A stretch of 34,528 nucleotides of DNA from Acidimicrobiia bacterium (lineage in GTDB: Bacteria > Actinomycetota > Acidimicrobiia > IMCC26256 > DASPTH01): contig JBBDHW010000039.1 in the NCBI GenBank assembly GCA_040880805.1, forward strand, positions 8,817-43,344, read 5' to 3'. Positions 10,062 through 12,474 of the stretch are shown in pieces (the stretch's first letter is position 1; each line of letters begins with the position of its first letter). A program made the translations under genes and the position numbers. Under the pieces are notes generated by a model. The model did no database searches, had not been told where the DNA came from, and worked only from the letters and a program-made list of their open reading frames with translations.

Positions 10062-11621
10062 CTACGAGGTGCCGTCCTTGAGCGCGAGGTAATGGTAGGT
10101 GGCGTTGAGGGTGTTGACCTGGGCGTTCGTGCCGATCTGGAACCCGTCGCCCTCGAGCGCCTGGATGCGGTCGGCGTTGCTGGCCGTTGCACCCCAGAAC
10201 AAGGACACGTCGCCGGTCGCGGAGGCGGGCCGCCAGGTCGCCTGGTTTGAGGTGTCGCGCTTGACCCACACGAGAGCGGGCCCGAACCCGACTCCGGGGA
10301 TCGATCGGTTGTCGCTCGCGTCCCCGAGGTAGGTGCCTTGCTTCACGTTGGTTCCTGCCTTCCACGCCAGGTAGTGGAACGTGGTCCCGGACTCGTTCGT
10401 CGCGGCGTTCGACCCGATCTGGAAGCCGTCCGACTCGAGGGCCTGGATACGGTTGGTGAACTGGGAGGTCCCGTCGAGCGGGAACGACGCGTCGCCCGCC
10501 AAGCTGCTCGGCCGCACCGTGGAGTCGTTACCGTCGCCGATCGTGAGGACCCAGGCCGGCGCGAACCCGACTCCTGTGATGGAGCGGTTATCGGTGCCGT
10601 CCCCGAGGTAGGACCCGACTTTGAAGTCGCTGCCGGTCTGCAGCGCGACCCAGTGATAGGTGCGGCTCGATCCGCCGTTCACCTTGGTGTCCGTTCCCAG
10701 CGTGAAGCCGTCGGCGTCGAGCGACTGCACGCCGTCCGACATCAGGGCGCTGGTAGCACCGAGCACCTTCGACGCGTCGCCGACCATCGTGCTCGTCCTC
10801 CCCATGCCTGCGAGACCACACGTGCACTTGACGAAGACTGCGTCGGGCCGGAACCCGACCCCAGTGATGGCGCGGTTGTCGTTGGCGTCACCGACGTACG
10901 TCCCGGTCGCGAGTCGCATGACGAAGACCGCACTCGCCGTCCACGCGTTGCCGCTGTTGCCGGTAGTCGCCGTGAAGAGCGCACCCGCGGTGAGTGGTAT
11001 GGCGGCGACCGTGCCGATGATCGTCAGCACGACGACAAGGGGAAGAACCGGGCGCATGCGCCGGAGTCGGGCTTGTGCTCCGGCGCGCGGCCGCCTTGGC
11101 GGATCGTCATCGTGTCGCAGCGCGAACCGCGCGCACCACAGGGCAAGCGCGAGACCGAGCGCGAGGAGCGCGAGTTTGCTCCATTCGCCGGCCCGAGCCC
11201 ACGCCGTCGGGAGACCGGCCAGGGGCACGATCATGCGGCCCACACCGACGACCTGCGCCTTGCGGAGCGGCGTCGAGTCCGCGTTGGGGTTGGCGTCCCC
11301 CGCCGTCAGGTATGTGCTGTCGGCGGACCGGGACCGCACGCGATGGGCGATGAGCCCGGGCCCCGATGGGTTCCGGAACACCACGATCGCCCCCGCTTCC
11401 AGCCTGGAGCCGTCGAAGGGGGCCGCGACGACCAGGTCGCCGGCTCGTATCGAAGGCTGCATCGATCCCGAGGTAACCGCGACGGCCTTCCACCCGAGCA
11501 CGACGGGGGGACCGACAGCGAGCACGGCCAGCCACGTCACTGTGAAGACGACGAAGAGACCGACGTGGCCGAGACACAAGCGAAGCCGTGTTGCCTGCAC
11601 GCTCCTCACCTTGACGGCCAA
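10062..11621 (-). CDS. SipW/ER-type signal peptidase fused to a TasA-like signal segment and three surface repeats
   Basis: The 519-residue protein has four parts. Residues ~13-42 are a membrane helix. Residues ~44-130 are a signal-peptidase I domain of the archaeal/ER type: catalytic Ser53 in SGSMQPSIRAGDLVV, His93 in GLIAHRV where bacterial LepB has Lys, and Asp109/Asp115 in TAGDANPNADSTPL. A helix at ~149-168 follows. From Met189 there is a second signal-like segment (RPVLPLVVVLTIIGTVAA) ending in ALFTATTGNSGNAWTA, which matches the start of the neighbouring TasA-like protein. Residues 240-519 are three ~93-residue repeats opening with G(T/S)Y(V/L)GD..DNR(A/S)I.GVGF. I chose TTG 11619-11621 because AGGAG lies six bases upstream; GTG 11607-11609 has none. 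An internal start at ATG 11055-11057 would give a separate 331-residue secreted protein. It is 53 bp behind the TasA-like gene. Confidence 0.8.
   Translation of the reverse strand: MAVKVRSVQATRLRLCLGHVGLFVVFTVTWLAVLAVGPPVVLGWKAVAVTSGSMQPSIRAGDLVVAAPFDGSRLEAGAIVVFRNPSGPGLIAHRVRSRSADSTYLTAGDANPNADSTPLRKAQVVGVGRMIVPLAGLPTAWARAGEWSKLALLALGLALALWCARFALRHDDDPPRRPRAGAQARLRRMRPVLPLVVVLTIIGTVAAIPLTAGALFTATTGNSGNAWTASAVFVMRLATGTYVGDANDNRAITGVGFRPDAVFVKCTCGLAGMGRTSTMVGDASKVLGATSALMSDGVQSLDADGFTLGTDTKVNGGSSRTYHWVALQTGSDFKVGSYLGDGTDNRSITGVGFAPAWVLTIGDGNDSTVRPSSLAGDASFPLDGTSQFTNRIQALESDGFQIGSNAATNESGTTFHYLAWKAGTNVKQGTYLGDASDNRSIPGVGFGPALVWVKRDTSNQATWRPASATGDVSLFWGATASNADRIQALEGDGFQIGTNAQVNTLNATYHYLALKDGTS
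10065..10904 (-). repeat. Three degenerate ~280-bp repeats encoding surface domains
   Basis: Within the signal-peptidase fusion gene, residues 240-335 (10617-10904), 336-428 (10338-10616) and 429-519 (10065-10337) are homologous units. Each begins G(T/S)Y(V/L)GD, then DNR(A/S)I(T/P)GVGF.P, has a central TGD or AGD plus SL/F segment, and ends with (L/E).(S/G/A)DGF.(L/I)G....N....(T)(Y/F)H(Y/W)(L/V)A. Units 2 and 3 are closest. The pattern recalls beta-rich repeats (DUF7483-like) of exported and phage-related proteins; that assignment is from memory of the motif. Confidence 0.85.
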
Positions 11622-11674
11622 CGTGATCTCCTGTGGACGGTGAGGCCGGCCCCGGCCCCACTGACGCGAACGTG

Positions 11675-12307
11675 CTAGTTGTTCTGCGCTTCCCAGGTAA
11701 AGGTCGCCGTGGCGGTCTTGCTCTGCGCGGAGTTGTTGTCCTGCAACGTGACGGTGAAGCGATAGCTCTTCGTGGTGGGGTTCGTCGCCCCCGCGAAGCC
11801 GCCAAGACCCGTGCTGAAGTCTGTGTAGGACGTCCCGAAGCTCGCGAGCGTGCTGTTGAACAGGTTCGACGAGAGCGAAAAACCGGTGCAACTCGCCGTG
11901 GCCCCACCCGTCGTGCCGGTGCCGATGTCGACCGTCGTGTTCAGATAGGTGGCGAGGCCGGTTCCGGCGATCGACCCGTAGAGTTTGACGTCCGCGGTCA
12001 GGCTGCCGGTGTACGTGACGTTGATGCACTTCGTTGCCGTGTCGCCGGGCGTCATGTTCGACACGTTGAACATGACGCTCGCGCTGTCGTCGTCAGCGAG
12101 CGCCACCGAGCCCGCCGACCACGAGTTCGGCCCGTTGGTCGTGCTCGCGTTGAAGGCCGCCTGGGAGCTCACGATCACGAGTCCACCCACCACCGCGAGG
12201 GCCGCCAGCAGGCTGACGAGGCGGGCGATGCTCGAGCCGCCCGAAGGGAGGCGCGGGAGGCCCCGCGGGCCGGCAACCGACGAACCGGAAGCCACCAATC
12301 TGGACAT
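11675..12307 (-). CDS. TasA/camelysin-like exported protein with SipW-type signal
   Basis: The 210-residue protein has an N-terminal extension, a hydrophobic helix at ~29-46 and a cleavage region VSSQAAF, followed by NASTTNGPNSWSAGSV. This is the SipW-cognate signal pattern (TIGR04088-like): a small residue, F, A/S, T-T/N-N, then W.AG. The mature part is Ser/Thr/Gly-rich and beta-like, with MTPGDTATKCINVTYTGSL, which matches TasA/CalY proteins (PGD then an I.V.N/Y.G strand). It has two cysteines (about residues 86 and 137) that could form a disulphide. TasA forms biofilm fibres in Bacillus; that this protein does so is inference. The start ATG 12305-12307 has AGGAGG seven bases upstream, which rules out the longer frame. 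The likely processing enzyme is the next gene. Confidence 0.82.
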   Translation of the reverse strand: MSRLVASGSSVAGPRGLPRLPSGGSSIARLVSLLAALAVVGGLVIVSSQAAFNASTTNGPNSWSAGSVALADDDSASVMFNVSNMTPGDTATKCINVTYTGSLTADVKLYGSIAGTGLATYLNTTVDIGTGTTGGATASCTGFSLSSNLFNSTLASFGTSYTDFSTGLGGFAGATNPTTKSYRFTVTLQDNNSAQSKTATATFTWEAQNN

Positions 12308-12474
12308 TTCGGTACCTCCTGGGCAACTCGCAAACGACTCGACGCAACTCTTCGACGCCCTGAGGGCCCGACTGAAGACAAAGTCGGGACGGTCCGACGC
12401 CCTGCGAGGGCCCACGGGCGCACGAGGTTGGACTGCCGCCTCAACCCCAAGCGTGCGGCAGCGGCCCGATGCGC
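12308..12474 (-). other. Structured 167-bp spacer upstream of the TasA-like gene
   Basis: This spacer holds three stem-loops: GCCCT-G-AGGGC (12357-12367), CCCGACT-8 nt-AGTCGGG (12367-12388) and GCCCT-GCG-AGGGC (12399-12411). The first and third belong to near-identical direct repeats (12353-12369 and 12395-12413, sharing GACGCCCTG and AGGGCCC). None is followed by a T-run. They could end the patA transcript, protect its 3' end, or control the TasA-like gene. I could not match the region to a known riboswitch, and no convincing -35/-10 pair is visible. Confidence 0.45.

Follow-up and report, generated by a model that had tools for sequence, protein, structure and literature searches.

The window, a stretch of 34,528 nt from an Acidimicrobiia bacterium, carries on its reverse strand a gene in which a SipW-type signal peptidase is fused in frame to a candidate SipW-type substrate. 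Directly upstream lies a gene for a TasA-like fibre subunit, which ends 53 bp before the fusion gene and is absent from the initial annotation. The features of the locus, all on the minus strand, are as follows, with arrows marking predicted cleavage positions.

12315–12320 (-): Shine-Dalgarno sequence AGGAGG, 7 nt 5′ of the ATG of the TasA-like gene (sequence)
11675–12307 (-): TasA/camelysin-like fibre-subunit gene, 210 aa, with signal site SSQA50↓AFNASTTNGPNSWSAG (PF12389, AF2)
11628–11632 (-): Shine-Dalgarno-like AGGAG, 6 nt 5′ of the TTG of the fusion gene (sequence)
10062–11621 (-): fusion gene, SipW-type signal peptidase plus TM3/internal signal peptide plus DUF7483; 519 aa, TTG start
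11154–11552 (-): signal peptidase domain, archaeal/ER type, residues 24–156 (TIGR02228, SEC11 likeness)
11465–11463, 11345–11343 and 11279–11277 (-): catalytic residues Ser53, His93 and Asp115
11106–11183 (-): TM2, residues 147–172, out to in (hydrophobicity; AF2 helix 147–172)
11049–11105 (-): basic loop, residues 173–191, predicted cytosolic, n-region of the internal signal peptide (sequence)
10980–11048 (-): TM3, residues 192–214, in to out, h-/c-region ending A212-G213-A214 (AF2, conservation)
10926–10979 (-): predicted cleavage position A214↓L215 and post-cleavage SipW-type motif LFTATTGNSGNAWTASAV, with P2′ Phe216
10065–10913 (-): DUF7483 unit with three internal repeats (PF24299, 5e-20; phrog_19943, phrog_24898)
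10626–10913, 10347–10625 and 10065–10346 (-): the three repeats, residues 237–332, 333–425 and 426–519

The initial annotation described one frame joining a Ser53/His93 peptidase to a second hydrophobic segment and repeats, and this is what is found: the 519 codons at 11621–10062 (-) are open throughout, with no internal stops, and encode an ER-type peptidase, then a cytosolic loop leading into a third membrane helix, and after the site AGA↓LFTATTGNSGNAW a single DUF7483 unit. GC3 is 0.72–0.97 in each 40-codon block and stays high in all blocks at the junction (codons 161–240), so that no frame switch is hidden there. The copy of the gene in the whole-genome assembly is identical to the window sequence. 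The source is a single draft assembly of 69 contigs, and DUF7483 is limited to 2 of 296 genomes of the class, both of which would fit a biologically meaningless chimera created by an assembly error or by a stop lost in one strain. This explanation is nevertheless very hard to credit, since the coding signal is even across the junction and the arrangement of peptidase, TM3 and site occurs in about 30 other genomes as well as in complete Arthrobacter plasmids; the recurrence in itself makes an assembly error at the fusion unlikely. A frameshift or assembly artefact was rejected on these two grounds, uniform GC3 and recurrence of the architecture.

The peptidase half belongs to family S26B by its TIGR02228 score (residues 24–156; 68.3 bits against a curated cut-off of 51.85, E = 6.6e-19). 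It contains the boxes SGSMQPS with Ser53, GLIAHRV with His93, and GDANPN followed by Asp115, and its catalytic pair is Ser-His rather than Ser-Lys, set in the SGSM, HR and GDAN..D boxes of that family. All three residues are invariant in an alignment with 20 fused relatives. The closest solved chains are the human signal peptidase complex (SPC) subunits SEC11C and SEC11A, both by sequence and by the fold of the AF2 model. The match to the Bacillus SipW equivalog profile NF046067 reaches only 45.7 bits against a cut-off of 190; judged by sequence, the fused peptidase is a SipW-like member of the ER-type family and no SipW ortholog.

Hydrophobicity and charge predict a topology with the N-terminus inside, the catalytic domain outside, the basic loop inside and DUF7483 outside. 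The loop, which differs in length among relatives, is followed by TM3 (about 192–214) and the site A214↓LFTATTGNSGNAWTA. An AF2 helix at 192–217 spans TM3, with confidence dropping beyond residue 205; the model has low confidence at residues 205–231 and a pLDDT below 50 in the site region. The TapA profile TIGR04087 did not match the fused C-terminal part, of which the N-terminal motif alone is TapA-like.

The C-terminal part had been described as three repeats. These are indeed present, with lengths of 96, 93 and 94 residues and 39–44% identity to the first, but together they make up a single DUF7483 unit, a phage virion/tail-fibre domain: PF24299 scores 72.3 bits on the tail, in three stretches, against a gathering threshold of 27. 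Three independent repeat duplications were considered and rejected, as the repeats form one unit in viral proteins as well. The AF2 model of this region has a pLDDT mostly above 90 and matches phage structures in BFVD with E-values down to 8.5e-22; a comparison of the predicted fold with solved structures gave no clear match. DUF7483 proteins occur on viral contigs, with up to 53% identity per repeat, and usually have three repeats, the environmental-virus examples on contigs L167–L183 among them. In its three repeats and predicted fold the tail resembles the DUF7483 (PF24299) proteins that marine and environmental phages encode; it differs from them in being part of a secreted bacterial protein, placed after a signal peptidase, rather than of a virion protein, and in being very rare in its class. 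A search for a separate-gene counterpart of the DUF7483 tail found none.

The upstream protein carries its own SipW-type signal site, SSQA↓AFNASTTNGPNSW, with Phe at P2′ (SSQA↓AF). Its similarity to PF12389 is weak (25.5 bits against a gathering threshold of 22.5, 1.4e-5), and NF046066, the TasA equivalog profile, gives 21.6 against a cut-off of 450. For its AF2 model (mean pLDDT 74), the best PDB match is the TasA fibre 8aur (E = 1.2e-5, prob 1.00, TM about 0.5), followed by FimA pilins, and the model has the donor-strand jelly-roll fold of TasA fibres. FimA pilins also use donor-strand exchange. By these measures the gene falls below the TasA equivalog cut-off, while its product weakly resembles the wider camelysin family and has a predicted fold like that of TasA. 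A search of the window’s genome found no further TasA-like copies, and the signal motif, run across the genome as a DNA pattern, matched the TasA-like gene alone. A canonical LepB is encoded elsewhere in the same genome. A second, weak signal-peptidase-like (S26-like) gene lies at G000:C56:11729-12214 (L002, L136), and no TasA-like neighbour was found beside it.

A search for the same fused architecture across actinobacterial genomes, as proposed in the initial annotation, showed that it is recurrent and not a one-off: about 30 similar fusions were found, spread over the class and phylum (at least 15 families) and on Arthrobacter plasmids. Of the domain order proposed there, the succession of peptidase, TM3, site and tail recurs, while DUF7483 as the tail is rare (2 of 296 genomes). 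A profile of peptidase, TM3 and site matched 96 of 395 class genomes at E ≤ 1e-12 and 66 of 396 phylum genomes at E ≤ 1e-20, counts that give no estimate of fusion frequency, since fused proteins were the basis of the profile and long frames the criterion for choosing several of the loci. Among 73 peptidases at E < 1e-22, 32 are fused to TM3, a site and a secreted tail (some of these tails were assigned by eye, where the site had escaped the automatic call or been wrongly placed by it), 15 are followed by a separate gene bearing a like signal site, and 22 have neither; the remainder are two at contig edges and two fusions to GGDEF-EAL. Named records of close relatives come from Acidimicrobiaceae, Ilumatobacteraceae, Acidimicrobiales and the Arthrobacter/Pseudarthrobacter plasmids. 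The fused tails are mutually unrelated, and include Big_7 Ig, GH26, Laminin_G_3 (LamG), CBM96, RCC1, WD40, NHL, Rax2-like propeller, Gly-rich and DUF2341 modules. In most systems, fused and separate, a TasA-like gene lies directly upstream. A contig scan with a single protein as query returned no relatives, and a viral scan of that kind was unsuccessful.

Some of these loci have features of their own. Plasmids of Arthrobacter sp. TMP15, A. alpinus and Pseudarthrobacter (L021, L022, L023) carry a tasA-like gene and a peptidase fusion with Ig-like or GH26 tails; the Arthrobacter plasmids with the fusion are complete sequences. A second TasA-like gene lies near the fusion in L072, L143 and L147, which suggests several fibre subunits per locus. 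In L084 (G313:C7) and L089 (G222:C22), a SipW-type peptidase is followed by several membrane helices and then by GGDEF and EAL, so that a c-di-GMP enzyme is joined to a matrix signal peptidase, and TasA-like genes flank both sides.

Conservation of the predicted cleavage site bears on whether the tail is released. Where the profile called the site in fused proteins, P1 was Ala in 25 of 25 and P2′ was Phe in 24 and Tyr in one, a count that is partly circular because part of the fused set went into training the profile. Independent of that training are a shuffle test and the separate homologues. The motif [ASTGV]xAx[FYW]..[ST] is found in 25 of the 32 fused regions, well above chance: in shuffles of the same regions it turns up in 5.9 of 32 on average, with a maximum of 13 over 500 shuffles. 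The sites of separate substrates have Ala at P1 in 15 of 17 and Phe or Trp at P2′ in 15 of 17, and resemble both the fused and the TasA-like sites. Across the 20-sequence alignment of fused proteins, whose tails come from unrelated families, Ala214 is as invariant as Ser53 and His93. A P2′ Phe site such as that of TasA is refractory to LepB and used by SipW, and is the hallmark of SipW substrates (PMC10269814). The proposal that the fused part is a SipW-type substrate is borne out by its site, which agrees with those in free substrates and in the TasA-like protein upstream, and by two tail families that also exist in sister genomes as separate genes with SipW-type signals.

The initial annotation had allowed for permanent display of the repeats at the cell surface. 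DUF7483 would then never be released, the peptidase would serve as its membrane anchor, and the site would be a relic of a separate gene. The predicted topology places DUF7483 outside in either case, some fused tails clearly derive from separately existing proteins, and homology of the site segment with free signal peptides could outlast its use for a while. We nonetheless consider such display unlikely, because a relic site should drift, whereas Ala at P1 and Phe or Tyr at P2′ persist in essentially all fusions, over unrelated tails and several fusion gains or losses, and the enzyme that recognises such sites sits in the same molecule.

Had the two halves always been separate genes in homologues, the reading of the initial annotation would have been refuted; relatives instead show a mix of fused and separate forms. 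The fused tail of L069 aligns over about 400 residues, at 39–53% identity, with the separate downstream genes of L071, L076, L077, L078, L079, L081 and L083; for the fused tails of L096 and L059, identity to the separate genes of L152, L154 and L157 is 41–48%. Most separate downstream genes start on the peptidase stop codon or a few bases from it, often in an ATGA overlap, so that a small frame change is enough to fuse or split the pair. The peptidase nearest to that of the window (L062, 52% identity) is of the separate type, and the protein encoded after it is not a DUF7483 protein. Descent of all fusions from a single ancient one was rejected: on a quick tree, the fused rows as one clade have an AU p of 2e-57, and fusion therefore arose or was lost several times. 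On that tree, the fused label requires at least 17 changes, of which starred branches force three.

We think it probable that this is a matrix locus of SipW/TasA type, and that it encodes the peptidase and an accessory substrate as a single polyprotein that would be cut at Ala214↓Leu215. The N-terminal ER-type peptidase would span the membrane by TM1 and TM2, with its Ser-His(-Asp) site outside, and the basic cytosolic loop and TM3 together would serve as an internal signal peptide of SipW type. Cleavage after Ala214 would be the work of the peptidase, either the molecule’s own copy or a neighbour’s, and would leave a three-helix membrane enzyme that could also process the upstream TasA-like subunit. 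The cut would free a DUF7483 protein with a TasA/TapA-like N-terminus (LFTATTGNSGNAW...). This new N-terminus is probably a donor strand, by which DUF7483 may ride on or start the TasA-like fibre as an adhesive accessory subunit; by analogy with TapA of B. subtilis, the released protein could initiate the fibre or cap it. SipW processes TapA, the tapA stop overlaps the sipW start, and the N-terminus of TapA resembles the TasA donor strand, its first residues being enough to support biofilm formation (PMC9674648, PMC10151520). A strand fitted to its groove would lead one to expect matching N-termini in the TasA-like and fused proteins of one locus; their within-locus similarity has p 0.004 for all pairs but loses significance (p 0.09) when two near-duplicate pairs are left out, and is thus not robust.

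Cleavage might instead occur in trans only, with the fusion protein as substrate of LepB, of the S26-like product of G000:C56 or of another fusion copy. The genome does encode LepB and the weak S26-like gene, and separate-gene systems necessarily work in trans. We regard this as quite improbable, since LepB is poor on P2′ Phe sites (PMC10269814) and the fused enzyme retains its catalytic residues intact. Self-processing by that enzyme may take place in cis or between molecules.

The arrangement resembles the tapA-sipW-tasA and sipW-tasA-calY operons of Bacillus in several respects: an ER-type peptidase lies beside TasA-like substrates, the sites are of SipW type (P2′ Phe), the TasA-like fold is present, and accessory and peptidase genes overlap. 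It differs from those operons in its in-frame fusion of the accessory substrate to the C-terminal side of the peptidase, in having DUF7483 and not TapA as the tail, and in its gene order, tasA-like followed by peptidase::substrate. The site shares the form [AST]xA↓xF.[AD][ST]T.N..N with SipW-dependent signal peptides (NCBIfam TIGR04088/TIGR04087), which are N-terminal whereas that of the fusion is internal. Neighbours L184 and L188 reach 17–18 bits against the TIGR04088 cut-off of 19, and a TIGR04088 search of the window’s own proteins gave no match. Self-processing polyproteins such as viral protease precursors likewise combine a protease with the site that it cuts in a single chain; here the protease is a signal peptidase, the site belongs to an internal signal peptide, the system is a cell-encoded surface system, and the cut is predicted.

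Signal peptidases are textbook trans-acting enzymes. A recurrent arrangement in which the peptidase comes with its substrate attached beyond an internal cleavage site would be an unusual, self-processing way of secreting a protein. A literature search that left most subscription papers outside its reach returned no SipW-substrate fusion, which does not prove that none has been described. The locus would bring Acidimicrobiia-type and other actinobacteria into TasA/SipW-type fibre biology, and would illustrate how such a system takes up surface modules, a phage virion domain included. As a possible and more tentative generalisation, Actinomycetota may possess a modular self-processing surface-fibre system, in which a polyprotein of peptidase and exchangeable adhesin or enzyme is cut in cis at an internal SipW-type site and the released N-terminus serves as a donor strand that caps or starts TasA-like fibres; the slot would have taken Ig, LamG, RCC1, WD40, NHL, GH26, CBM96 and phage DUF7483 modules. 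The natural occurrence of fused and separate pairs makes the choice between cis and trans directly testable. For annotation, plasmid records name the fusions by their tails only (“Ig-like domain-containing protein”, “glycosyl hydrolase”), and the peptidase half is overlooked. Finally, MAGs of Bacilli, Tenericutes and Eubacteriales (L189–L192, L196, L197 and L199) encode ER-type signal peptidases of about 380–400 residues, about 250 of which form a multi-helix N-terminal half.
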